Below are positions 3,695-21,777 of a stretch of 23,879 nucleotides of DNA, in pieces. The stretch is taken from positions 1-23,879 of IMG/VR virus record IMGVR_UViG_3300037847_007204. The stretch is one strand, 5' to 3'. The stretch comes from a virus. The position numbers and the translations under genes are program-made. The notes beneath the pieces were generated by a model that was not told where the DNA came from, searched no databases, and saw only the letters and a list, made by a program, of their open reading frames with translations. Within the stretch, counting starts at the first letter, position 1. Each line of letters opens with the position of its first letter.

Positions 3695-3951
3695 AATACA
3701 ATAACAACATCTGGTTGTCTAATAACAAGATAAAACTTGTCTTCAACTTCTACACCAAAACCAGCATTTTTATCATAATAAACAGTATCACCGTCTTTTA
3801 CACCTTCAACTAAATTTCCAGCTGACTTAATAATACCTTTACGATATCTAACATCTTCTTTTATTTTATCTGTTAAAAGTAACCCACCTTTTGTTTTAGT
3901 AGGTTTTTCTTTTATTTCTTCTACAACTAAAAATATACCTACTGCTTTCAT
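3691..3951 (-). CDS. groES: GroES-like co-chaperonin (Cpn10)
   Basis: GroES caps the GroEL ring and encloses the folding substrate. The 86-residue product contains the mobile-loop region EKPTKTKGGLLLTDKIKEDV, in which GGLLL takes the place of the GGIVL contact tripeptide of E. coli GroES. It then has YRKGIIKSAGN, VKDGDTVYYDKNAG and a C-terminal VIRQPDVVIVL strand, the expected cpn10 order. It is shorter than the usual 95-100 residues, mainly because the roof-loop region between AGN and VKDGD is reduced. The start codon overlaps the GroEL stop by four bases, so the two are co-translated. The order groEL then groES is the reverse of the usual bacterial operon. Confidence 0.93.
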   Translation of the reverse strand: MKAVGIFLVVEEIKEKPTKTKGGLLLTDKIKEDVRYRKGIIKSAGNLVEGVKDGDTVYYDKNAGFGVEVEDKFYLVIRQPDVVIVL

Positions 3952-5492
3952 AACTCTCTCATGTTACTAATTACACAATCAGTAGATAATATTGTAGTTG
4001 CTACAGATACAGCGTTTTTTAAAGCTGTTTTAGTTACTAGCACTGGATCTATAATACCAGATTTAACCATATTAGATGGTTTGCCAGTCACTACATTTAT
4101 ACCCCAACCTTTTTTGTTAAGCTCTTCAAAGCTTATACTAGCGTTGTTTAGTATTGTTTTATAAGGTGCTTTTATAGCTTCTATAAATATTTTTTCACCT
4201 TCAGTTTTACAGCTTAAACTATTAGCTGCATTTAATAAAGCTACACCTCCTCCTGGAACTATACCTTCTTTTATTGCAGCTTTTGTTGCGTGTATCGCGT
4301 CATCAACTCTATCTTTCTTTTCTTTTAATTCAACATCAGAGTTAGCACCTACAGTTATAACTGCTACATTACCAGATAAAACGCCTAAACGTTCTTGTAG
4401 TTTTTCAGTTTTTAAACCAGGTGCGTTTGTATTAATTTGATCTTCAATTGATTTAATTCTTTCTTTAGCAACTTCAGAAATATTAGATATTTTTAAAACT
4501 GTTGATTTACTGTCTGAAACAGCGCTATCACATTCACCTAACATGTCTGGTGTTATAAGATCTACATCATCGCCGTATTCTTCATTAATATGAACAGCTC
4601 CAGTAACAGCAGCAATATCATCTAAAAAATCTTTTTTCCAGAAACTAAACCCTGGAGGCGCAACAACGTTTGCTTTTATGTTACCTTTTATTTTATTCAT
4701 AACTAAAGCGCTCATAGGTTGTTTATCTAATTCACCTATAATTAAAATGCTTCTGTTATTTTCAACAGCATATTCTAATACTGTTTGTATTTTTCTTACA
4801 GTTGTTATTTTAGAAGAAACTAATAATACTAAAGGTTTTTCAAGAGTAACATTTTGTTTTGTTACGTCTGTTACAAAGTTTGGGTTTGCAAAACCTTGAT
4901 TTATCTGAGAGCCTGAAACAAGTTGTACGCTAGTTTCTTCAGATTTAGTATCAGTGTCCATAAGCACTACACCGTTTTTACCAACCTTTTTAAAAGCATC
5001 ACCAATTATGTAGCCAAGGTTTTTATCGTTATTTGACGATATGCAAGCAACTTGGTCAATCATATCACCTTCAACAGGTATTGATACTTTATTTAAATAC
5101 TTTATAGTTTTATCGTAACATTTTTGTATATCTTCTTTTATGTTACGTAAAGATTCTTTATGGTCTTTAGCTTTGTCTATAAACGCATGAGCTAAAACTG
5201 TAGCTGTTGTAGTACCGTCTCCAGCTTCGGTTACGGTTTTTCTAGCAGCTTCTTTTATTAATGTAGCACCAATATCTTCTACAGCATCATGTAGATTAAC
5301 TGAATTAGCTACAGTTACACCGTCTTTTGTAATTAACGGTCGACCCATAAAGTCTTCTAATATAACACACTTACCGCTAGCTCCTAATGTAGAGCTAACG
5401 GCTTGTGTTAATTTTGTAATACCATTGAACACTTTTTCTTGAGCATCACTACCAAAGTTTAAGTGCTTCACTATTTTTTGTGAGTTTTGCAT
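3948..5492 (-). CDS. groEL: GroEL-like chaperonin (Hsp60)
   Basis: GroEL forms ATP-driven rings that fold proteins; phage copies are thought to fold virion proteins. The 514-residue product has the whole domain order. The nucleotide-binding stretch is GASGKCVILEDFMGRP, the GDGTTTATVLA motif is at residues 91-101 (Asp92 equals E. coli Asp87), and the apical domain follows at about 190-370. The return equatorial segment RVDDAIHATKAAIKEG holds the catalytic Asp at 398, followed by IVPGGGVALL. The apical substrate groove is divergent (GSQINQGFANPNF where E. coli has GMQFDRGYLSPYF). The protein stops at CVISNMREL, so the disordered Gly-Gly-Met tail is absent. It sits in the structural-gene transcript, directly before its GroES. 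Confidence 0.96.
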   Translation of the reverse strand: MQNSQKIVKHLNFGSDAQEKVFNGITKLTQAVSSTLGASGKCVILEDFMGRPLITKDGVTVANSVNLHDAVEDIGATLIKEAARKTVTEAGDGTTTATVLAHAFIDKAKDHKESLRNIKEDIQKCYDKTIKYLNKVSIPVEGDMIDQVACISSNNDKNLGYIIGDAFKKVGKNGVVLMDTDTKSEETSVQLVSGSQINQGFANPNFVTDVTKQNVTLEKPLVLLVSSKITTVRKIQTVLEYAVENNRSILIIGELDKQPMSALVMNKIKGNIKANVVAPPGFSFWKKDFLDDIAAVTGAVHINEEYGDDVDLITPDMLGECDSAVSDSKSTVLKISNISEVAKERIKSIEDQINTNAPGLKTEKLQERLGVLSGNVAVITVGANSDVELKEKKDRVDDAIHATKAAIKEGIVPGGGVALLNAANSLSCKTEGEKIFIEAIKAPYKTILNNASISFEELNKKGWGINVVTGKPSNMVKSGIIDPVLVTKTALKNAVSVATTILSTDCVISNMREL

Positions 5493-14570: not shown

Positions 14571-14810
14571 TTATTTACAATTATTTATTCTAGTGCCTCT
14601 ACCGTGGCCGCTTCTGTTCGCTTTCATCGAAACAAAACGCTTTTTTGTGTGGTCGTAGTCTTTACCTTCTATGTTTTTACCAGCTTTTATAGCTTTTCTG
14701 CGCTTTCTTTGGTTTTCTGCACGCATTTTCTTACGTCGAGGGCTATTTGCAGCTGCTAGATCTCTCTTGCGTTTAGCTGCAAGCGCTCTTTTTGATAATT
14801 TTTGCGGCAT
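14571..14810 (-). CDS. Very basic small protein, first gene of the left arm
   Basis: The 79-residue product is extremely basic: MPQKLSKRALAAKRKRDLAA, then NSPRRKKMRAENQRKRRKAI and a tail MKANRSGHGRGTRINNCK. It is predicted helical with an arginine/lysine-rich face and no acidic clusters. I recall small 'LSKRALAAKRKRDLAAANSPRRKKMRAENQR' proteins from marine phages, always uncharacterised. It would bind nucleic acid or RNA-rich partners if its charge is a guide. It is the first gene downstream of the leftward 47-bp control element, with a leader of about 85 bases between element and start codon. Confidence 0.76.
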   Translation of the reverse strand: MPQKLSKRALAAKRKRDLAAANSPRRKKMRAENQRKRRKAIKAGKNIEGKDYDHTKKRFVSMKANRSGHGRGTRINNCK

Positions 14811-14894
14811 TTTTTACTGTTTTAATTACATTTGTACTAATTACACGGTTATTTACAGTTTTAAGGTATTATTTTTTACTTAATTTTTTATTAG

Positions 14895-14941
14895 TGTGAC
14901 AATAGGGTATTACTTATATACCTTAAAAGGCTTATGTCACA
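14895..14941 (-). promoter_or_regulatory. 47-bp control element, leftward copy (TGTGACA...TGTCACA)
   Basis: The element has perfect 7-base inverted ends (TGTGACA, TGTCACA) 33 bases apart. Read on the minus strand its core is TATATAAGTAATA. The same 47-base layout occurs at 20257-20303 on the plus strand, with 39 of 47 bases identical when this copy is reverse-complemented. It precedes the whole leftward structural-gene transcript. A promoter/operator bound by a dimeric regulator is the simplest reading, and is inference. Confidence 0.72.
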
Positions 14942-15031
14942 TTTTTTAATTAAAAAGTTGTTGCTAATTGTGAGTGTTTGCTCTATACCCTAACTCGTTG
15001 ACTACCAGCCAGTTACGAAAACGCCTTTTTT

Positions 15032-15110
15032 AGCCCCATGGGCCCCCCTGTTAAGGCCCCCCTGGGCCATATTTTTAGGTTTTGGCCCCCCGGCTAGCCC
15101 CGTAGGCCCC
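15032..15110. other. Isolated GC-rich block with G/C runs (possible G-quadruplex/origin element)
   Basis: In a genome of about 30% GC this block carries three GGCCCCCC runs (from 15041, 15055 and 15084) plus further CCCC runs. On the minus strand that is a series of G4-G6 tracts that could form G-quadruplexes. It also holds short palindromes, CCCATGGG (15035-15042), GGGCCC and GGCTAGCC (15092-15099). It lies between the divergent promoters and is probably not inside either transcript. Role unknown; origin, insulator or packaging signal are possibilities. Confidence 0.55.
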
Positions 15111-15123
15111 AGATGATGTATAG

Positions 15124-15160
15124 CACAACTTTAATACGACTGCACATAGATAATATAATA
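15124..15160 (+). promoter_or_regulatory. Rightward two-box promoter-like motif, copy 1
   Basis: AATACGA (15133-15139), a 7-base spacer, then TAGATAATATAATA (15147-15160), ten bases before the ATG at 15170. The same pair of boxes with the same 7-base spacer recurs five more times in the right arm. TATAAT as a -10 with TTTAAT as a -35 (18-base spacing) would suit a sigma70-like enzyme; this reading is inference. Confidence 0.7.
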
Positions 15161-15169
15161 AAATTAACT

Positions 15170-15337
15170 ATGCTACTTATAAATAAATATCAAATCAAAC
15201 TTACTACAAATTTACTAACAAATAACTATATTAATATTAAATTTATTTCTAATAAACTATTTATAATTAATAATCCTTCAAATATTAATATAACTAAATT
15301 ACTAACTAAAAATAATATAACTTTTAAAGCAATTTAA
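15170..15337 (+). CDS. Hypothetical 55-residue low-complexity protein
   Basis: The reading frame from this ATG encodes 55 residues, MLLINKYQIKLTTNLLTNNY onward, almost only Leu, Ile, Asn, Thr and Lys. I chose this start because it follows a promoter-like motif and an AAATTAACTATG leader like those of neighbouring genes; an in-frame ATG exists at 15113, before the motif. The composition is what very AT-rich DNA would encode by chance, so the gene is doubtful. No domain is recognisable. Confidence 0.45.
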   Translation: MLLINKYQIKLTTNLLTNNYINIKFISNKLFIINNPSNINITKLLTKNNITFKAI

Positions 15338-15342
15338 AAAAA

Positions 15343-15379
15343 CACAATTTAAATACTAACACTATTAGATAATATAAAT
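15343..15379 (+). promoter_or_regulatory. Rightward two-box promoter-like motif, copy 2
   Basis: AATACTA (15352-15358), 7 bases, TAGATAATATAAAT (15366-15379), preceded by CACAATTTA. It lies 41 bases before the ATG at 15421 in an 83-base gap between genes. Spacing is identical to the other five copies. Confidence 0.68.
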
Positions 15380-15420
15380 GTAAATAATAACTTAATAATA
15401 ATAACTTAAAACAAATAACT

Positions 15421-15648
15421 ATGCAAACTTTAAAATCAAAACGCTTCGTAATTCGCAAATCACTAATTGGCAAAAATCAAATCATTGAAGTAACTTTCAA
15501 AAATGGCAAAAAAGCAAAGTATAATCATGACCTCGCTTACAACATCATGCAAAGCAAACTAAATACTATGCCTTGCTTTGAAAAATACAAAAGCTATACA
15601 AGTAGCACTTCAATTCCAGTAATTCTACGTGACAAAGTAATACTTTAA
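15421..15648 (+). CDS. Hypothetical small basic protein
   Basis: I do not recognise this 75-residue protein. It starts MQTLKSKRFVIRKSLIGKNQ, continues IIEVTFKNGKKAKYNHDLAY and NIMQSKLNTMPCFEKYKSY, and ends SIPVILRDKVIL. It is basic, with a likely beta hairpin (VIRKSLIGKNQIIEVTFKNG) followed by a helix. It has its own promoter-like motif and is followed by a clear terminator hairpin, so it is probably a single-gene early transcript. Functions of such small phage genes are often host takeover; that is inference here. Confidence 0.72.
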   Translation: MQTLKSKRFVIRKSLIGKNQIIEVTFKNGKKAKYNHDLAYNIMQSKLNTMPCFEKYKSYTSSTSIPVILRDKVIL

Positions 15649-15661
15649 TCACTTATAAACT

Positions 15662-15694
15662 AAGAGCAGTAGTATAATACTCTGCTGCTCTTTT
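15662..15694 (+). terminator. Intrinsic terminator after the gene at 15421-15648
   Basis: AAGAGCAG (15662-15669) pairs with CTGCTCTT (15685-15692), eight base pairs, with AGTAT/ATACT as an inner stem in the loop, and ends in a TTTT run. This is the one clear rho-independent-type hairpin I found. Confidence 0.7.
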
Positions 15695-15734
15695 AAACAC
15701 TTAAACAAATAATCACCTTTAAAAACTAAATAAA

Positions 15735-15884
15735 ATGAGAAAATTTCATCATAATAAAGTAATTAATGTACTATCTAACGTAGCAGTTTACTCTGCAGTA
15801 ACACTAATCTTATCAGGTTCACTAATGATACTAATGTCAGTAATATCAGGTGATGTTCCAAGTAGCTTTGGAATATATGGGTAA
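15735..15884 (+). CDS. Small single-pass membrane protein, unknown function
   Basis: Found by reading the gap between genes: MRKFHHNKVINVLSNVAVYS, AVTLILSGSLMILMSVISG, then DVPSSFGIYG and stop. The product has 49 residues with a basic N-terminus and one hydrophobic segment from about residue 15 to 37, so it is a plausible inner-membrane peptide with the N-terminus inside. No two-box motif lies directly before it; it follows the terminator by about 40 bases. Small phage membrane peptides can affect lysis timing, superinfection or host membranes, but nothing here shows which. Confidence 0.6.
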   Translation: MRKFHHNKVINVLSNVAVYSAVTLILSGSLMILMSVISGDVPSSFGIYG

Positions 15885-15885
15885 A

Positions 15886-15922
15886 CACAAATTAAATACA
15901 ACAAAAGTAAGATAATATAATA
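15886..15922 (+). promoter_or_regulatory. Rightward two-box promoter-like motif, copy 3
   Basis: CACAAATTAAATACAA (15886-15901), 7 bases, AAGATAATATAATA (15909-15922). It lies 27 bases before the ATG at 15950 and starts right after the stop of the membrane-protein gene. Confidence 0.68.
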
Positions 15923-15949
15923 AAATAATAACTAATAAAAATAAATACT

Positions 15950-16147
15950 ATGTACTATAATAAATATCACAAAACTTGGAAACAAGCATTTGCTGAAGTA
16001 AACGCTCAAGCACTTAAACACGAAATAATTAAAGCAATAGCTTCTGAAATAGTTCAAAGACCAGTGGAAAATCTAATAGGTTTCACTGATGAACAAAGAA
16101 ACCAAGTTTGGAGTGACTATTATAATACTATAACATTAAATAAATAA
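15950..16147 (+). CDS. Hypothetical small helical protein
   Basis: The 65-residue product reads MYYNKYHKTWKQAFAEVNAQ, ALKHEIIKAIASEIVQRPVE, NLIGFTDEQRNQVWSDYYNT, ending ITLNK. It is mostly helical and soluble, with no recognisable domain. It begins after a two-box motif and is followed two bases later by another small gene starting in the AATAACTATG context. I can give no function; it belongs to the early small-gene block. Confidence 0.68.
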   Translation: MYYNKYHKTWKQAFAEVNAQALKHEIIKAIASEIVQRPVENLIGFTDEQRNQVWSDYYNTITLNK

Positions 16148-16149
16148 CT

Positions 16150-16275
16150 ATGCAAAAACTAGATAAAATAGCACAAGAAGTATTTGGTGAGTTTGGATTC
16201 ACTACGTGTACTTCACATCAACAAGAAACAATATTAACTTATTACTCTAATTTTAAAAAACTATGCAATGAATAA
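16150..16275 (+). CDS. Hypothetical 41-residue protein
   Basis: Reading from the ATG just after the previous stop gives MQKLDKIAQEVFGEFGFTTC, TSHQQETILTYYSNFKKLCNE and TAA. The start has the AAATAACTATG context shared by this block, and the end overlaps the next gene as ATGAATAA. The product is mainly one amphipathic helix with a short central turn. It is too small to classify; the tight packing on both sides is the best support that it is a real gene. Confidence 0.58.
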   Translation: MQKLDKIAQEVFGEFGFTTCTSHQQETILTYYSNFKKLCNE

Positions 16276-16519
16276 TAAAAGAGAATTTATGAATATACCT
16301 TATGAGGTAAAAGATAACAAGTTTAATCAATGGTTTACTTGTAAGTACTTCAACTTCTACCCGTATCACATCATGTCATTTTCTACAAATACAGAAGATG
16401 AAATGAAGCAAAAAATAGCGGATTACGTAGATAATAGAGTAAAATACGAGCGAAAATATAAACTAAGTACTAAAGCGGCAGCGCAATTTTACAAAGAATT
16501 AAATTATAAAGGCGATTAA
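16268..16519 (+). CDS. Hypothetical protein, aromatic-rich
   Basis: The 83-residue product begins MNNKREFMNIPYEVKDNKFN and contains WFTCKYFNFYPYHIMSFSTN, an unusually aromatic stretch, followed by a charged helix (TEDEMKQKIADYVDNRVKYE) and a lysine-rich end. No known domain. A second Met at residue 8 is possible, but the first start fits the eight-base overlap with the previous gene. Function unknown. Confidence 0.67.
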   Translation: MNNKREFMNIPYEVKDNKFNQWFTCKYFNFYPYHIMSFSTNTEDEMKQKIADYVDNRVKYERKYKLSTKAAAQFYKELNYKGD

Positions 16520-16521
16520 CT

Positions 16522-16692
16522 ATGAAAATAATGAAATATAGAATAATATATAGGAACACCTTTCATGGTGACGAAGAAATAGATACAGCGGAAACTAGAC
16601 GTGAAGCTATAAGATTAGTAAACGAATATAAATTAGCATTTCGCTCTGATAACATATACTTTAACAAATTAAATACGAAATACTACAGATAA
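16522..16692 (+). CDS. Hypothetical 56-residue protein
   Basis: Translation from the ATG two bases after the previous stop gives MKIMKYRIIYRNTFHGDEEI, DTAETRREAIRLVNEYKLAF and RSDNIYFNKLNTKYYR. The layout is beta strand, acidic turn, alpha helix (TRREAIRLVNEYKLAF), beta strand, typical of small phage proteins with a ferredoxin-like or RRM-sized fold, though I would not assign one. The end of the gene contains the fourth two-box motif, and the stop TAA is part of it. Confidence 0.66.
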   Translation: MKIMKYRIIYRNTFHGDEEIDTAETRREAIRLVNEYKLAFRSDNIYFNKLNTKYYR

Positions 16693-16699
16693 TATAATA
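16664..16699 (+). promoter_or_regulatory. Rightward two-box promoter-like motif, copy 4
   Basis: ACAAATTAAATACGA (16664-16678), 7 bases, CAGATAATATAATA (16686-16699), ten bases before the ATG at 16709. The motif is embedded in the last codons and stop of the previous gene. Confidence 0.7.
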
Positions 16700-16708
16700 A
16701 AAAAAACT

Positions 16709-16900
16709 ATGCAAACAATTAAATTCTTACCAAACAATCAAATACGCCTTGGCAATACAACTTATAAAGGTTATACAATAGGCGAACTACCAAAATCCTT
16801 CGGTTTTATTTATGATGAAGATACAGACAAAGAAGGTAAATCAGAGTGGTTTAACTACAAAGGTTTAACTTATGTAGAAAAAACATTACTTCCATGGTAG
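16709..16900 (+). CDS. Hypothetical small protein
   Basis: The 63-residue product reads MQTIKFLPNNQIRLGNTTYK, GYTIGELPKSFGFIYDEDTD, KEGKSEWFNYKGLTYVEKTL, ending LPW. It looks like a small all-beta protein with an acidic loop (DEDTDKEGKSE). It is the first gene after the fourth two-box motif, with only about ten bases between motif and start codon. No function is known. Confidence 0.68.
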   Translation: MQTIKFLPNNQIRLGNTTYKGYTIGELPKSFGFIYDEDTDKEGKSEWFNYKGLTYVEKTLLPW

Positions 16901-16908
16901 TAACTAAT

Positions 16909-17109
16909 ATGAAAGAGCTATGCAATTACTCTTTACAACAGAAAAAACTACGTGCTGCGGAGCATAGACGCAAGCACTCACATGACGGTCAGTGCAGTGG
17001 ACTTACAGACAAGGAGTATAATAGAATACAAACTCGTCAAAAATCTACTTTTTCAAAAGCTAGAAAGTTCACTCACAACCGTATGTGGAAATATTATAAC
17101 TTAAAATAA
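16909..17109 (+). CDS. Hypothetical basic protein
   Basis: From the ATG at 16909 the product has 66 residues: MKELCNYSLQQKKLRAAEHR, RKHSHDGQCSGLTDKEYNRI, QTRQKSTFSKARKFTHNRMW, ending KYYNLK. An upstream in-frame ATG at 16894 would add MVVTN but overlaps the previous gene by seven bases; the downstream start has a better A/T-rich leader. The protein is strongly basic with clusters of Lys, Arg and His, suggesting nucleic-acid contact; this is inference. No domain recognised. Confidence 0.64.
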   Translation: MKELCNYSLQQKKLRAAEHRRKHSHDGQCSGLTDKEYNRIQTRQKSTFSKARKFTHNRMWKYYNLK

Positions 17110-17114
17110 ACACT

Positions 17115-17546
17115 ATGACAAATTATCAACTACAACAAAAATACTTAGAAGCAGACTTCGTTTTTAATATGCTTTCTAAATATGGAATTAAAGAAGTAAC
17201 AACTCAGCGTCAAGCTAAAAATGAAACTCGTGAGTTTGAGTTTCCTGTACCTTGCTACACAAAACAAAGACTTAAGTGGTTTAAAAGTAAAAACTATAAC
17301 TTAAATGATTTACCTCGATTAAGAATCGCTGTGTTTAAATCAGGCTATGTACGTAAGCAAAACGGTGCATACAAACCTTATCAACTAAATCCACAGTACA
17401 AACAGAATCAAAAGTGGGTTTGGCAAAGAGAAAATGGTGAAATATATATATCAGACACTGTATGTAATGCAAGAGCTCTTATATACTCGCCATTAACTAG
17501 ATTAAACTATATGTTAAACTATTACCTTAAAAACTATGCAAAATAA
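17115..17546 (+). CDS. Hypothetical protein, basic and aromatic
   Basis: I do not recognise this 143-residue protein. It starts MTNYQLQQKYLEADFVFNML and contains TREFEFPVPCYTKQRLKWFK, LNDLPRLRIAVFKSGYVRKQ and WVWQRENGEIYISDTVCNAR. It is basic with many Tyr, Trp and Lys residues, and predicted mixed alpha/beta with a C-terminal helix (LTRLNYMLNYYLKNYAK). Five bases separate it from the previous gene, so it is probably on the same transcript. Confidence 0.7.
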   Translation: MTNYQLQQKYLEADFVFNMLSKYGIKEVTTQRQAKNETREFEFPVPCYTKQRLKWFKSKNYNLNDLPRLRIAVFKSGYVRKQNGAYKPYQLNPQYKQNQKWVWQRENGEIYISDTVCNARALIYSPLTRLNYMLNYYLKNYAK

Positions 17547-17547
17547 T

Positions 17548-17658
17548 ATGAATCCTTGGGAAAGATTGTATAACCACCCAGCGTTTGAGAGTTATACAAA
17601 AGAACAAATAGATGAAATGACATTTGCTGAATTACATGAAATACTAGACTATGATTGA
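17548..17658 (+). CDS. Hypothetical 36-residue acidic protein
   Basis: MNPWERLYNHPAFESYTKEQ then IDEMTFAELHEILDYD and TGA. It begins one base after the previous stop, with an A-rich leader, and its end overlaps the following start, so it fills the gap neatly. It is a short acidic helix-turn-helix-sized peptide with no known relatives that I can name. Its reality rests on packing and composition. Confidence 0.52.
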   Translation: MNPWERLYNHPAFESYTKEQIDEMTFAELHEILDYD

Positions 17659-17749
17659 ACTAAATAAATTACAAGAACAATATAACAATAACGAGATAAC
17701 TTTTGAAGAATATCATGAAGGATTAGATCTTCTTGGTTGGCTAAAATAA
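17651..17749 (+). CDS. Hypothetical 32-residue peptide
   Basis: MIELNKLQEQYNNNEITFEE then YHEGLDLLGWLK and TAA. The start overlaps the previous stop by eight bases. The 'LQEQY.N.EITFEEYHEGLDLL' pattern resembles the short helical linker region of SHOCT-like peptides, in which a 'L..LY..G.IT..EF...K..LL' motif occurs; this is only a pattern resemblance. Too short to assign a function. Confidence 0.5.
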   Translation: MIELNKLQEQYNNNEITFEEYHEGLDLLGWLK

Positions 17750-17755
17750 AAAAAT

Positions 17756-17938
17756 ATGAGTGTAACTAAAAAAATAGATCATGTGGCACAAGGTGTTGCT
17801 GATCATATAAAAGAAATAATATACGACACTGTTGAGTGGCAAATAGCTGACTTTCCAGTAAATGGCGACGAGTATAATGCTATACACAGCGCCGTTATGA
17901 AGCGTGCTATCGAGTATTTGTACGATGACACAAATTAA
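17756..17938 (+). CDS. Hypothetical helical protein
   Basis: The 60-residue product is MSVTKKIDHVAQGVADHIKE, IIYDTVEWQIADFPVNGDEY, NAIHSAVMKRAIEYLYDDTN. It is helical, with two helices around a central GDEY turn. No domain recognised. Its stop codon lies within the fifth two-box motif (ACAAATTAAATACGA), so the promoter-like sequence overlaps its 3' end, as for the genes ending at 16692 and 18944. Confidence 0.66.
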   Translation: MSVTKKIDHVAQGVADHIKEIIYDTVEWQIADFPVNGDEYNAIHSAVMKRAIEYLYDDTN

Positions 17939-17965
17939 ATACGATTACTCGTAGATAATATATAT
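17930..17965 (+). promoter_or_regulatory. Rightward two-box promoter-like motif, copy 5
   Basis: ACAAATTAAATACGA (17930-17944), 7 bases, TAGATAATATATAT (17952-17965), 22 bases before the ATG at 17988. It is the last copy before the structured RNA region. Confidence 0.7.
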
Positions 17966-17987
17966 GTAACAAATAAAATAAATAACT

Positions 17988-18176
17988 ATGTATTGTAAAT
18001 GTGGAGATGAAGTACACCCAGTGAGATTAAATTTAGGCTATAAGACATGTGTAAAGTGTTCTACAACTAAAACTTATAGCTACGTACCAATCATAGAACA
18101 CAAAACAGGTAATACAATACAAATTGTCAGCCAAGAAGTAAGCGCATCAGTGCACAGAGCTTGGCGACGTAAATAG
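17988..18176 (+). CDS. Small zinc-ribbon protein, TraR/DksA-like appearance
   Basis: The 62-residue product has a four-cysteine site near the N-terminus, MYCKCGDEVHPVRLNLGYKT followed by CVKC (Cys3, Cys5, Cys21, Cys24). The spacing suits a zinc ribbon. The rest, SYVPIIEHKTGNTIQIVSQE and VSASVHRAWRRK, is beta then a basic helix. Small CxC...CxxC proteins with this look occur in phages and resemble the zinc knuckle of TraR/DksA transcription modulators, but the usual acidic coiled-coil tip is missing. It may act on host RNA polymerase, which is inference. It is immediately upstream of the structured RNA. Confidence 0.68.
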   Translation: MYCKCGDEVHPVRLNLGYKTCVKCSTTKTYSYVPIIEHKTGNTIQIVSQEVSASVHRAWRRK

Positions 18177-18179
18177 CTA

Positions 18180-18623
18180 GACGAGTAGCTTAATTAGGTC
18201 GGACGGGTGAGGGATCGTTATGAACTCCGCGAGACACATAAGTGAATAGCTAGCAATACCCAGCGAATAAATAACAAACCTGCATGCTGGTAACAGTAGA
18301 CAACCAGGGAATCCCATGGTGTCGAATCCAACCGGAGAGCGGTTAGGAAATGTCTGGGTATAAAACAGGTACAGTATCACGGATTGCAGAGTAATTAACT
18401 GCATGCACGGTGGAAGTCCGACTGCGAAAGCAAAGATAACTGTATCTATAAGCAGTAGTAAGTATAAGTCAGGGTACACACCGGTAAATGACGTGCATCT
18501 TATTACTGCTTTATGGGCGTGATATGGTAAGAAACATATGTGGTGCCGACTATCGACGGATATAAGCGAGCGTACGGAAGTGTATTATGTTTAACGCAGG
18601 TTCGATTCCTGCCACGTCCACTA
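18180..18623 (+). ncRNA. Candidate structured noncoding RNA with tRNA/tmRNA-like 3' domain
   Basis: No plausible gene covers 18177-18641. GC is about 45% (188 of 420 bases in 18181-18600) against roughly 30% around it, as expected for a structured RNA in an AT-rich genome. Visible helices include ATACCCAG/CTGGGTAT (18256-18263 with 18354-18361), TCC-AACCG/CGGTT-GGA (18327-18348), CTGGT/ACCAG (18287-18307), TGCAG/CTGCA (18385-18403), AGATA/TATCT (18434-18447), and a 12-bp stem AAGCAGTAGTAA/TTATTACTGCTT with one G-U pair (18450-18461 with 18500-18511). The 3' end is a tRNA-like domain described separately. Exact ends are not known. Large ornate phage RNAs such as GOLLD and ROOL are a conceivable class, but I cannot match their consensus from memory. 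Confidence 0.75.
18515..18623 (+). ncRNA. tRNA/tmRNA-like domain with G3-U70 and A73
   Basis: GGGCGTG (18515-18521) pairs fully with CACGTCC (18613-18619), including G3 with U70. The unpaired base after it is A (A73), followed by CTA; G3-U70 and A73 are the alanyl-tRNA synthetase identity signals shared by tRNA-Ala and tmRNA. The T arm is canonical: GCAGG, loop TTCGATT, CCTGC (18596-18612), directly abutting the acceptor strand. The D region is only ATATGGTAAG, and AAACATA (18532-18538) pairs with TATGTTT (18586-18592), replacing an anticodon arm by a 7-bp stem closing 47 bases. That layout resembles tmRNA, but no tag-coding frame or room for pseudoknots is present. Confidence 0.72.
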
Positions 18624-18641
18624 ATTTTAAATTAAATATAA

Positions 18642-18944
18642 ATGAGAACATCAGCAAAAGTAAAACAAATGACAAGCGAAAGATCTGGAAGACCAGTGGC
18701 TAATCAGTTTATTATCTATGCTTCTAACGGTACTTATTTTCAAAGTTATAATAGCGTCATAGCTTTTATATCTAATGACGGTAAAGTTACACTAGATGAT
18801 TACTATTGGGACTACTCTCGCACAACAAGTAGATACAGAAATCAGTTTTTAGGTGAAAATACTGCGGAAACTAGAGCTAAAATAGACTCTGGCGAGTATA
18901 AACTAAAAGATTTACAAGTACCTAAAAACCCTTACACAAATTAA
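18642..18944 (+). CDS. Conserved phage protein, resembles DUF8033
   Basis: The 100-residue product contains MTSERSGRPVANQFIIYASN, GTYFQSYNSVIAFISNDGKV and TLDDYYWDYSRTTSRYRNQF, then LGENTAETRAKIDSGEYKLK. The 'SGR.V.NQFII......YFQSY.S.IA.........LD...WDYS.TT..YR..FL.E...ET..KI..G.Y.L' pattern is one I know from uncharacterised early phage proteins, and I recall DUF8033 as its name, unverified. It is soluble with a likely beta sheet and C-terminal helix. It follows the structured RNA and its stop lies in the sixth two-box motif. Confidence 0.74.
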   Translation: MRTSAKVKQMTSERSGRPVANQFIIYASNGTYFQSYNSVIAFISNDGKVTLDDYYWDYSRTTSRYRNQFLGENTAETRAKIDSGEYKLKDLQVPKNPYTN

Positions 18945-18971
18945 ATACGAATAGTAATAGATAATATAATA
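18936..18971 (+). promoter_or_regulatory. Rightward two-box promoter-like motif, copy 6
   Basis: ACAAATTAAATACGA (18936-18950), 7 bases, TAGATAATATAATA (18958-18971), 11 bases before the ATG at 18983. It overlaps the 3' end of the DUF8033-like gene. Confidence 0.7.
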
Positions 18972-18982
18972 AAATAATAATT

Positions 18983-19231
18983 ATGGCAAGACTTACACTT
19001 TACGAAAGACTAAAACCTGAGATCAAAGAAGCTTTAATATCAAACATGGTTAACTATGAAACAACTGTTACAGATATTATTGAATTACTTTGCAACGAAA
19101 CATTTTACTCTAATCTAAAAATTAGTGACATTAGCTCGTTATATACATTTTCTGACATTGAACTTATTAAAGTATCAGCGTGGGATTTTAAATATGGCGA
19201 TAATATTTTAATATCTAAAGACTATGAATAA
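18983..19231 (+). CDS. Hypothetical protein
   Basis: The 82-residue product begins MARLTLYERLKPEIKEALIS, continues NMVNYETTVTDIIELLCNET and FYSNLKISDISSLYTFSDIE, and ends LISKDYE. Mostly helical with a central helix pair; no domain recognised. It is the first of a run of four closely overlapping genes that follow the sixth two-box motif, so all four are likely co-transcribed. The stop overlaps the next start as ATGAATAA. Confidence 0.68.
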   Translation: MARLTLYERLKPEIKEALISNMVNYETTVTDIIELLCNETFYSNLKISDISSLYTFSDIELIKVSAWDFKYGDNILISKDYE

Positions 19232-19433
19232 AGAAATTAAAGAACGAGCTAGACATAAAGCTTTTGCTAAAATTAGCTTTATAGAATTAGAAAACAGAAC
19301 ATACAAAAGAGATATTAAAGCAGGTGGTGATGGTAGATTATCAGTTGAACTTCTACAACGCTGCTTAAACTCTAACGAAAATGAATTAAAAACCTGGCAA
19401 TATATTGCTAAATTAATAGAAACAGATGAATAA
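19224..19433 (+). CDS. Hypothetical basic helical protein
   Basis: The 69-residue product reads MNKEIKERARHKAFAKISFI, ELENRTYKRDIKAGGDGRLS and VELLQRCLNSNENELKTWQY, ending IAKLIETDE. It has two long helices joined by a glycine turn (KAGGDGRLS). No known family. It is joined to both neighbours by identical eight-base ATGAATAA overlaps, which suggests translational coupling in a fixed ratio. Confidence 0.67.
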   Translation: MNKEIKERARHKAFAKISFIELENRTYKRDIKAGGDGRLSVELLQRCLNSNENELKTWQYIAKLIETDE

Positions 19434-19875
19434 AATACTAACAGAAGAACTAATAGAACAAAAACTAAAAGAAAAATACGAATACCCAGAAGATCCTGAT
19501 CAAGATGTAATGCTTGAAATATTACAAGATGAGTATCAGTTTGAACTAACAGACTCTTACAGTAGAAGCCCTGATTATTCTATATTTGCAGAATGTACAG
19601 CTGATGGCTATGAAGTATGGGTTGCTACTTTTGGAGATGGTAGCAATATATGTATCGGTGAAGACGTACATTACTATGAAAGTGACTTATCTGATAAGCT
19701 TCAAGAAGCTATGGTTGATCACTGTGAGCTTATATATGTAGATGATTTAGAAGCTAATTATGTACAAGATGCTATTATGTATGCGTATCAAGATTTATAC
19801 GAAGACAAACAAGAAGAAATTACAGATGAACTTATTGAACAAGGTTACAAGTGGCCTGAAAAAGTTGAAGCATAA
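19426..19875 (+). CDS. Highly acidic hypothetical protein
   Basis: This 149-residue protein has about 41 Asp and Glu against about 9 Lys and Arg, by my count, a net charge near -32. It begins MNKILTEELIEQKLKEKYEY and contains EDPDQDVMLEILQDEYQF, SPDYSIFAECTADGYEVWVA and YESDLSDKLQEAMVDHCEL. It is predicted mixed beta and helix with a C-terminal helical acidic part. Strongly acidic small phage proteins sometimes mimic DNA to block host nucleases or regulators; nothing in the sequence proves that here. It overlaps the next start by one base (TAATG). Confidence 0.7.
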   Translation: MNKILTEELIEQKLKEKYEYPEDPDQDVMLEILQDEYQFELTDSYSRSPDYSIFAECTADGYEVWVATFGDGSNICIGEDVHYYESDLSDKLQEAMVDHCELIYVDDLEANYVQDAIMYAYQDLYEDKQEEITDELIEQGYKWPEKVEA

Positions 19876-20153
19876 TGACAGAACAAGAAATGGAAAAACT
19901 AGCTAACTTAGTTGTTGACAAACTAATAGCTAAACAGCAAGAGTATGACGAGCAGTTTCACGTAGACTTACAACAAACTATGAGCGATAATATGGGTCAT
20001 GCAAGACACGTAACACAAGAAGAGTTATTGCTAGCAGAAATAGCTAGACTTATGACTCTATTGTCATCATACGAAGACAAAGAACAATATGAAAAAGCTG
20101 CTATAATTAAAAATAAAATAGATAAATTAAAGAACAAATTAGATGAATTATGA
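19875..20153 (+). CDS. Hypothetical coiled-coil protein
   Basis: The 92-residue product begins MTEQEMEKLANLVVDKLIAK and is helical throughout, with a likely coiled coil in the second half (LLLAEIARLMTLLSSYEDKE then QYEKAAIIKNKIDKLKNKLD). A short polar break (MSDNMGHARHVTQEE) separates two helices. The C-terminal pattern resembles UVR-type helical hairpins ('YEDKEQYEKAAIIKNKIDKLK'), in which a helix pair mediates protein-protein contact; this is a resemblance only. It is coupled to its neighbours by TAATG and ATGA overlaps. Confidence 0.7.
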   Translation: MTEQEMEKLANLVVDKLIAKQQEYDEQFHVDLQQTMSDNMGHARHVTQEELLLAEIARLMTLLSSYEDKEQYEKAAIIKNKIDKLKNKLDEL

Positions 20154-20275
20154 GTAGAATAAAGACGTATAAGCATTTAATAAACACAAATGCCTTTGGC
20201 ATTGGAAATAAAGTAAAGCAATATAAAAAACCTAAAAATAAGAATAATAAAAGGACTGTGACAACAGCCCTTTAA
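20150..20275 (+). CDS. Hypothetical 41-residue basic peptide
   Basis: MSRIKTYKHLINTNAFGIGN, then KVKQYKKPKNKNNKRTVTTA and L, stop TAA. It starts inside the stop of the previous gene (ATGA) and is strongly basic in its second half. The 3' end of the gene contains the left half (TGTGACA) of the 47-bp control element, so transcription of this gene would run through that element. Support is from coupling and frame; function unknown. Confidence 0.5.
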   Translation: MSRIKTYKHLINTNAFGIGNKVKQYKKPKNKNNKRTVTTAL

Positions 20276-20303
20276 TATATATAAGTAATAGGCTAATGTC
20301 ACA
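20257..20303 (+). promoter_or_regulatory. 47-bp control element, rightward copy (TGTGACA...TGTCACA)
   Basis: TGTGACA (20257-20263) and TGTCACA (20297-20303) are perfect inverted ends around a core TATATAAGTAATA (20278-20290). The right end overlaps the ATG at 20296 of the helix-turn-helix gene. 39 of 47 bases match the reverse complement of the copy at 14895-14941, and the length is identical. An inner AGCC/GGCT pair is also present. It probably controls the rightward replication/regulation genes. Confidence 0.72.
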
Positions 20304-20916
20304 AGACAGAAACATAAAATGGTTAAATGATAGGCATGTTGTTTACAGAAGAGATCCTGTAAATGACGTTCCTACCATTGAAACAAACTACTATAAGTAT
20401 TATGAAAATGGTACTCATGAGTGTTATCATTTGTTTAGAAGCAAAGCTAAAATTACTACATATAAATCTTTAAAATGGCATTTTTATGTTTTGTTTTATT
20501 TAAATGAAGACTGGTTATCTCCTTCTAGTATGACTTATATATTTAAGTTTATAGCAAATAAAGAAAATGGTTTTGTTACATTTTTTATTAGTGAAAAAAA
20601 GCTAGAAGACATGATTGAAGATGTTTTTAATAACGGTGGTGAACCACCTATTAACAAAAAACGTAAGATAATATTTAAAGATTTTAAAGGTTTAACACCA
20701 CAAGAAAAAATGAGTATTGTAGGTCAACTTATAGGTAGATCAAAACGTATAGACGAAGAAGCTATTTATCAATGCATGTTAGACTTAAATGATATAGGTA
20801 AAAAAATTACTGTAGCAAAAATAGCTAGTTTACTTAACTGTTCTGCTAGAACTATATACAGAACTATAGGCAGCGAACTTAAACAAGAAAAAGAATTATT
20901 AAACCAAGAATTATGA
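20296..20916 (+). CDS. Helix-turn-helix protein, possible phage regulator
   Basis: The 206-residue product has an N-terminal mixed region (MSQDRNIKWLNDRHVVYRRD, WHFYVLFYLNEDWLSPSSMT) and a basic linker (KKRKIIFKDFKGLTPQEKMS). Its C-terminal helix-turn-helix at about residues 172-192, TVAKIASLLNCSARTIYRTI, resembles the DNA-recognition end of Hin/resolvase-type proteins ('..IA..L..S..TIYR.I'). There is no catalytic recombinase domain, so a transcription regulator or replication initiator is more likely. Its start codon lies within the 47-bp element, which suggests autoregulation. That last step is inference. It is coupled to the next small gene by a four-base overlap. Confidence 0.72.
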   Translation: MSQDRNIKWLNDRHVVYRRDPVNDVPTIETNYYKYYENGTHECYHLFRSKAKITTYKSLKWHFYVLFYLNEDWLSPSSMTYIFKFIANKENGFVTFFISEKKLEDMIEDVFNNGGEPPINKKRKIIFKDFKGLTPQEKMSIVGQLIGRSKRIDEEAIYQCMLDLNDIGKKITVAKIASLLNCSARTIYRTIGSELKQEKELLNQEL

Positions 20917-21023
20917 AACAAAGCTTTAATGAGTGGATGGTGTATATTGGTAACATATATTACGCTAATGATGATATGATGGCTAAAGCATACCAAACAA
21001 TAGAAGAATATGAAGAAGTATAA
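20913..21023 (+). CDS. Hypothetical 36-residue acidic protein
   Basis: MKQSFNEWMVYIGNIYYAND then DMMAKAYQTIEEYEEV and TAA. The start overlaps the HTH gene's stop as ATGA, and the end overlaps the sigma factor gene by 14 bases. The peptide is one amphipathic helix with Tyr and Glu residues. Its position between a DNA-binding protein and a sigma factor is the only hint of role; its main interest may be coupling translation of the sigma factor. Confidence 0.52.
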   Translation: MKQSFNEWMVYIGNIYYANDDMMAKAYQTIEEYEEV

Positions 21024-21777
21024 TATACAGAATTATATAAGATACAAAGAAGATCTTAAAAAATCTATGCCCGCTGAAAAGTTTTACGACTATTATACGC
21101 GAGATGAAATGATTATAAAGTTTATGCCGCTTGTAGAAAATATAGCGCGTAAATTTTCTACATCACAACAAGCATCAGGCGTTATGAGTATTAATGATTT
21201 AATACAAGAGGGTAATATAGGCCTAACACAAGCTGTAGACAAACTTGACTGGGACTTATTAGTTGATTCTGAAGACATTGAAAAAACATTAAAGTCGTTC
21301 TTTTCAAAACGTATAAAAGGATCAATTAGACGTGCTATAGACAATAATAGGGGAAACATACGTATACCAGAACATAAGTTAAATCAAATACGTAAAGACA
21401 ATGGTAAAGACAAAAAAATGATAGAAATGTTTTTTAGTACTATATTTTCTAGTATTGATGAAGAAATAAAAGTTGAAGGCATGAAAGGCACTACAACTTA
21501 TGCTGAAATAATAGAAGATAAAACAGAAGACTATAACAAAGAATTATTAAGTGCTTACATATTAAGTTTAATGGAAAAGTACTTACACCCAAGAGAATAT
21601 GCTGTATTAAAATATAGCTACGGTATTAACGCAGACCGCATGAAAGCTAAGTTAATAGCAGAGATGATAGGACTAAAAGGCAACTCAGCTCATGTGCGTG
21701 TTTCTGAAATAAAAAAAGAAGCAATACAAAAACTTATAGACAACGTAGATCACTCGCAAGTGATTGATTATCTGTAA
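21010..21777 (+). CDS. Phage RNA polymerase sigma factor, sigma70 family
   Basis: The 255-residue product has clear sigma regions. Region 2 spans about 34-115 and includes FMPLVENIARKFST and INDLIQEGNIGLTQAVDKLD, the core RNA-polymerase-binding motif. A RIP motif (NIRIPEHKLNQIRKD, about 117-130) begins region 3. Region 4 spans about 180-245 (LHPREYAVLKYSYGINADRM, KLIAEMIGLKGNSAHVRVSE) with a helix-turn-helix for the -35 region. It lacks sigma70 region 1.1, as alternative sigma factors do. It would direct host RNA polymerase to phage promoters, for which the repeated motifs in this window are candidates; that link is inference. Confidence 0.9.
   Translation: MKKYNIQNYIRYKEDLKKSMPAEKFYDYYTRDEMIIKFMPLVENIARKFSTSQQASGVMSINDLIQEGNIGLTQAVDKLDWDLLVDSEDIEKTLKSFFSKRIKGSIRRAIDNNRGNIRIPEHKLNQIRKDNGKDKKMIEMFFSTIFSSIDEEIKVEGMKGTTTYAEIIEDKTEDYNKELLSAYILSLMEKYLHPREYAVLKYSYGINADRMKAKLIAEMIGLKGNSAHVRVSEIKKEAIQKLIDNVDHSQVIDYL

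Follow-up and report, generated by a model that had tools for sequence, protein, structure and literature searches.

A conserved pair of outward-facing DNA elements tied to a helix-turn-helix gene in uncultured phages, a candidate early-to-late switch

The element pair and its conservation

The DNA analyzed here is a stretch of 23,879 bases (the window) of the 25,205-base IMG/VR virus record IMGVR_UViG_3300037847_007204. It carries two copies of an inverted-repeat element, one at the head of the leftward structural genes and the other over the start codon of a rightward gene for a predicted helix-turn-helix (HTH) protein (Table 1). Comparison with relatives shows the element to be a conserved, sequence-specific, outward-facing two-site system that occupies fixed genome positions and is tied to the HTH gene. 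The interpretation favored here, with a probability of roughly 0.55, is that a regulator encoded by the phage uses the element as its DNA operator; this regulator, most likely the HTH protein, would activate the late promoter and repress its own operon.

Both copies are 47 bp long with perfect 7-base inverted ends (TGTGACA/TGTCACA); they are identical at 39 of 47 positions once one copy is reverse-complemented, and they have the 13-mer TATATAAGTAATA in common. A preliminary description of this DNA, made from its letters alone, had given these lengths, ends and core along with the coordinates and orientations, and had placed one copy at the head of the leftward structural genes and the other at the head of the HTH side, overlapping a start codon; all of this was reproduced. 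The pair is the longest inverted repeat of the window (62 nt at 76%, with arms 5,315 nt apart), and the pattern TGTGACA-N(30-36)-TGTCACA occurs twice there vs. 0.00 times in 100 dinucleotide shuffles. The nearest open reading frame (ORF) start among the leftward genes headed by the minus copy is 85 nt from it. The plus copy includes the HTH start codon (ATG at 20296, as ATGTCACA) as well as the TAA stop codon (20273-20275) of a 41-aa upstream ORF, and so fills the junction between the two genes.

A set of 19 viral contigs was fetched through homology to the HTH protein (50-79% identity) rather than through the DNA pattern, and in 19 of 19 the element lies over the HTH start codon. Further copies came from DNA scans of viral contigs, and totals that include them are to be read as "at least." Uncultured phage contigs with the element number well above one hundred; a two-arm position weight matrix (PWM) derived from related copies detects 208 elements across the 257 loci listed and none in reversed sequences. 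It stands at the HTH start in 123 of the 130 listed HTH-bearing loci (43-100% identity), always in the same orientation. One of the seven loci that lack it there, L048, has an outlying HTH gene. Four loci (L164, L174, L210, and L237) have a full HTH gene, starting MSQYERN, and no PWM-scored element; despite this, L164 and L174 have an exact match to the right arm at the HTH start.

An opposite-facing second copy is present in 11 of the 12 loci with at least 9 kb of readable sequence upstream of the HTH gene, at a distance of 4.9-9.3 kb, where the structural arm begins. In four genomes of 60-66 kb the element occurs exactly twice. The left copy stands where the long structural arm gives way to a shorter opposing arm that contains small genes and the HTH, sigma factor, recombination, primase-helicase, and ribonucleotide reductase genes. 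In G015 there is one copy near either end of the record, and some relatives have a tandem second left copy. In L182 (4007-5349) and L211 (2403-4113; both numbered on the strand that has the HTH gene as plus), the left element is duplicated along with a small neighboring gene, a homolog of the one at 15421-15648 of the window (RFVIRKSLIGK... family). Each element consists of two inverted arms of ~18-20 bp, with consensus TGTGACAnnAGSSnnTTA and a near-mirror right arm AGTAAnnGGCTAnTGTCACA, separated by a variable spacer of 7-10 bp. The window pair belongs to a two-site family with inverted arms, a total site length of 45-49 bp, a copy on the HTH start, and an opposite copy 5-9 kb upstream. Absence of the elements from relatives with equal gene order, an outcome that the preliminary description had named as telling against it, was checked for; position and orientation are kept in nearly every readable relative.

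A search for the element in deposited phages found nothing convincing, and three deposited phages whose portal protein is related (42-50% identical) do not have it. A literature search on the element, on promoter motifs of flavobacterial phages and on looped activators of late genes found nothing relevant. Several element-bearing genome contigs (L249-L254 and L256) are binned in bacterial metagenome-assembled genomes of Aliivibrio, Halieaceae, Saprospiraceae, Salibacteraceae, and Flavobacteriaceae; these are probably phage contigs binned with their host or by mistake.

Placement of the two sites and the proposed switch

In relatives, the left copies are followed by a bipartite promoter-like motif (TGTAAATA-N-TGTAAGTATATA) and then by the first structural gene; basic proteins similar to the one that begins the leftward arm in the window (Table 1) follow many of them. 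A motif PWM learnt on one set of loci and scored on a held-out set reaches a score of ≥9 in 28 of 99 held-out non-redundant copies and in 1 of 99 shuffled ones, the former value being slightly inflated, since a few of the 28 stand at HTH genes that start differently (L096, L202, and L224) or nearly duplicate training loci (L007 and L013). Most motifs are 21-25 bp from the element; other distances cluster at 31-35 and 53-55, and some fall in the intervals. Left copies abut the promoter-like motif, which is the position of an activator. Strict 10.5-bp phasing of element and promoter looked good in the first set and weakened in the held-out set, which also has distances of 37, 40, and 45; helical phasing of the element and the late promoter is suggestive only.

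The right copies are placed differently. Of 105 right copies, 91 hold both the end of the upstream ORF and the start of the HTH gene; the two genes meet there, and no separate promoter would fit between them. Transcription of the HTH gene probably comes from the early block to its left, in which six early-promoter-like repeats (Table 1) all read rightward through the small-gene block, upstream of small genes. Similar repeats are also present, sparsely, in the corresponding blocks of relatives. Since the right site overlaps the HTH start inside the early operon, where a protein bound to it would cover the beginning of the gene, repression fits better there than activation. The earlier proposal that both blocks are switched on together is for this reason not supported, and the "shared operator-promoter" of the same proposal is retained in part: a shared and conserved site does head two opposed blocks, but the promoter does not appear to lie inside the element, as the left copies have a separate motif and the right ones fill a gene junction.

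Coding constraint was considered as a cause of the conservation and set aside, as the left copies are non-coding and loci L168 and L204 retain the element although genes have been inserted downstream of it. In L168 (2822-3978), and also in L204, the element is separated from the HTH gene by two ORFs, one HNH homing-endonuclease-like and the other of 143 aa. The L168 element is intact despite the two intervening ORFs; as it is kept away from the HTH start, coding of the start codon does not explain its conservation.

Under the operator interpretation, the HTH protein would be made along with the early rightward operon. It would then bind the left copy beside the single late promoter and activate the structural arm, and on the right copy it would block the reading of its own gene and of the genes behind it. 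Early expression would go off as late expression comes on.

Several observations weigh against this interpretation. The late-promoter motif is weak at the window's own left copy, where the spacing of its two parts is shorter than in relatives. The spacing between element and promoter is not strictly helical (37, 40, 45, and 46 also occur), and L168 and L204 carry the element 1.1 kb ahead of the HTH gene instead of at the gene's start. A single binder would be expected to make the two copies of one genome alike, and their likeness is marginally above chance (28.5 of 38 positions for left and right copies within one genome vs. 28.0 across genomes; p 0.02-0.26, depending on the redundancy cut); left-right co-variation was therefore not used as proof of a shared binder, being marginal only. 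Finally, the sigma factor gene, which is also conserved nearby, could encode the key factor instead of the HTH gene.

The same operator and binder might also have the same effect at the left and the right site, with the HTH protein repressing both operons as a brake like λ CI or Cro, or activating both, as in the earlier proposal. This is the strongest competitor, although it appears distinctly less probable than a switch of opposite signs. Joint control classically has such a layout, with one site heading two operons. However, a simple repressor would be poorly placed at the left copies, which precede the promoter motif and do not cover it, and at the right copies there is no promoter gap downstream on which an activator could work. 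Moreover, no integrase or resolvase was found in the seven records searched, and so there is no sign of a lysogenic state in which a general brake would be needed.

An extension of the operator interpretation, which we consider doubtful, is that the HTH protein bridges the two outward-facing sites and loops out the 5-9 kb immediate-early block. If this were true, one act of binding would isolate and silence the early block and expose the late promoter, and the early/late switch of these phages would be of a loop type and be read by a family of DNA-binding proteins without a solved or deposited-phage relative.

The HTH protein and the sigma factor

At E ≤ 0.01 the HTH protein has no homolog in 50,697 deposited phage records; the viral contigs yielded 19. 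Its structural model is confident (pLDDT 90) and predicts a DNA-binding HTH at the C-terminus, whose three helices resemble TetR, DtxR, and sigma-4 type domains (Foldseek/VIA, Z 5-6.6), a common arrangement. Matches to Mos1 transposase (Z 5.2-5.7, rmsd ~9) were not used. The best matches of the N-terminal domain in the PDB have a Foldseek E of 2.8 and a Z of 2.1. The window protein is below the Pfam curated cut-off for HTH_23, HTH_11, HTH_22, HTH_29, and DUF7366, the E-values of its relatives are weak, and a profile of the HTH protein gave insignificant matches only to PDB sequences. The BFVD protein A0A516MIB4 is 30% identical (E 1.7e-11), with the alignment covering most of its length. These proteins appear to be a new, compact two-domain family of predicted DNA-binding proteins, the N-terminal domain having no clear match among known folds.

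Among the three deposited phages that lack the element, two have no match to the HTH protein and elemoA has a marginal partial match (E 2.7e-4). From the linkage of gene and element across divergent homologs, the portal relatives devoid of the element, and the confident HTH model, we infer that the HTH protein is most likely the binder of the element. The sigma-70-family factor encoded downstream is a possible reader of the late promoter.

Probable recognition as DNA and other possible roles

The invariant letters of the element are identical across copies, whereas its variable positions 12-15 show no compensation, and pairing at variable arm positions is no better than base composition predicts; the terminal pairs are invariant and hence uninformative in this respect. 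Conservation of sequence in the absence of covariation points to recognition as DNA rather than as an RNA stem. A role as RNA, in which the hairpin would be a bidirectional terminator or an antitermination signal like HK022 put or λ nut, is accordingly improbable. It is true that the copies fold (-11 to -24 kcal/mol) and that outer left copies come after the 3′-end of a gene, with A- and T-runs on their flanks. But the stem letters are invariant rather than merely complementary, the inner pairs lack compensatory change, the left arm of the window mismatches the right (AGCC/CCCT), and the left copies precede the promoter motif instead of lying behind it. A put or nut site or an intrinsic terminator keeps its stem by compensatory change, which is not seen here, and this role was rejected for want of covariation at the variable stem positions in spite of the folding.

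It is about equally improbable that a phage protein binds both sites for replication origin function or for packaging. Two dyad-symmetric copies per genome, in fixed places near replication genes, would suit such a function, but the strict orientation of the sites to the two coding arms, the duplication of the left copy with its neighboring gene, and the placement relative to the promoter-like motif all fit transcription better. A host regulator of the CRP/FNR type, which would bind TGTGA...TCACA, is very unlikely. The half-sites do look like those of CRP, whose operators are spaced as TGTGA-N6-TCACA; here the 7-base arms are 33 bp apart in the window, so that the CRP-family spacing is absent, and each 7-mer belongs to a longer conserved arm that is tied to a phage gene.

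The preliminary description had also suggested that recombination between the copies could flip the 5.3-kb block between them; the inverted orientation and the imperfect dyad sites would allow this, but such inversion is largely refuted, as the block genes read toward the HTH gene in 28 of 28 loci, several relatives carry spacers of unequal length at the two sites of a single genome (46 vs. 48), the copies are barely more alike within than across genomes and thus are not being exchanged, and searches of seven records for serine (PF00239) and tyrosine (PF00589) recombinases found none (controls were positive in 10/14 and 14/14 genomes, respectively), whereas Hin/Gin or tyrosine invertase systems have a cognate recombinase and show both orientations.

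Other features of the window and probable hosts

Table 1 Features of the window that bear on the element pair
Feature	Position	Strand	Description
First gene of leftward late arm	14571-14810	minus	79-aa basic protein
Weak candidate late promoter	14835-14857	minus	TGTAAATAA then TGTAATTAGTA
Left copy of element	14895-14941	minus	TGTGACATAAGCCTTTTAAGGTATATAAGTAATACCCTATTGTCACA; faces leftward structural arm; equivalents at same place in relatives
Early-promoter-like repeats (six)	15127-18968	plus	AAATTAAATACG-N7-TAGATAATATA; starts at 15127, 15346, 15889, 16666, 17932, and 18938
41-aa ORF	20150-20275	plus	Stop codon within right copy; no promoter-sized gap before HTH gene
Right copy of element	20257-20303	plus	TGTGACAACAGCCCTTTAATATATATAAGTAATAGGCTAATGTCACA; overlaps HTH start codon
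HTH protein	20296-20916	plus	206 aa; candidate element binder; C-terminal tri-helical HTH and N-terminal domain
Sigma-70-family factor	21010-21777	plus	phrog_351, E 4.1e-21; downstream of HTH gene

The small-gene block also contains a tmRNA-like RNA (18515-18623, plus strand; RF00023, 35.5 bits compared to a gathering threshold of 47, E 1.2e-12). It has a tRNA-like acceptor and T arm and a very short body, and it was missed by ARAGORN. Upstream of it, from ~18177, lies structured-looking sequence that matches no Rfam family.

The structural arm carries a phage GroEL gene (phrog_5725; 3948-5492, minus strand), whose product is 39.6% identical to its nearest deposited match, the GroEL of Flavobacterium phage immuto. 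The nearest deposited ERF proteins are those of Riemerella phages (44%), and the portal protein of relative G001 matches mainly phages of Flavobacterium, Cellulophaga, Maribacter, and Tenacibaculum. Judged from these nearest matches of ERF, GroEL, and portal, the hosts are probably Bacteroidota.

Significance and comparison with known systems

The element marks a group of phages of which no known isolate carries it, and AGTAAnnGGCTAATGTCACA is a highly specific marker by which such phages can be detected and both of their arms oriented. A control system of widespread uncultured marine phages, comprising a site, its probable binder, a putative late promoter and a candidate early promoter family, becomes legible from sequence.

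The late and middle activators C and Mor of phage Mu offer one parallel, a phage activator that binds a dyad site beside a promoter; their sites are shorter than the element, and Mu is not known to have a paired opposite copy. In λ, the CI operators OL and OR place one operator at two sites kilobases apart, at divergent operons, which makes looping possible. The present system is like that of λ CI in having the same operator twice, kilobases apart, at divergent operons. It is unlike it in that no integrase or resolvase was found in the seven records searched, and in the architecture of the site and the protein. The Elemovirus, Cellulophaga, and Maribacter Panino podoviruses resemble the element-bearing phages in their opposing coding arms, their GroEL/GroES, and a related portal protein, which in elemoA and Panino is 42-45% identical to that of G001. 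They differ in that no element is present in the two that were examined, elemoA 7-9A and Panino; the HTH protein has no match in Panino and the marginal one described above in elemoA.

The closest parallel is regulatory protein p4 of phage φ29, which activates late and represses early transcription from sites clustered between the early promoters A2b and A2c and the late promoter A3, with the consensus CTTTTT-15 bp-AAAATG (PMC3100819). An early phage protein acting at imperfect inverted repeats near the early/late divergence is established for p4 and would be the arrangement here as well, and the layout described above fits late activation coupled with early repression. The p4 consensus is not found in the element, whose core is TGTGACA-N33-TGTCACA in the window; the two sites are 5-9 kb apart, with one on the start codon of the candidate regulator itself, and that candidate, unlike p4, has a recognizable HTH. 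The early-to-late switch, the most probable reading of the element pair, would be comparable to that of φ29 p4 in its logic, with sites, spacing, and protein that are different.

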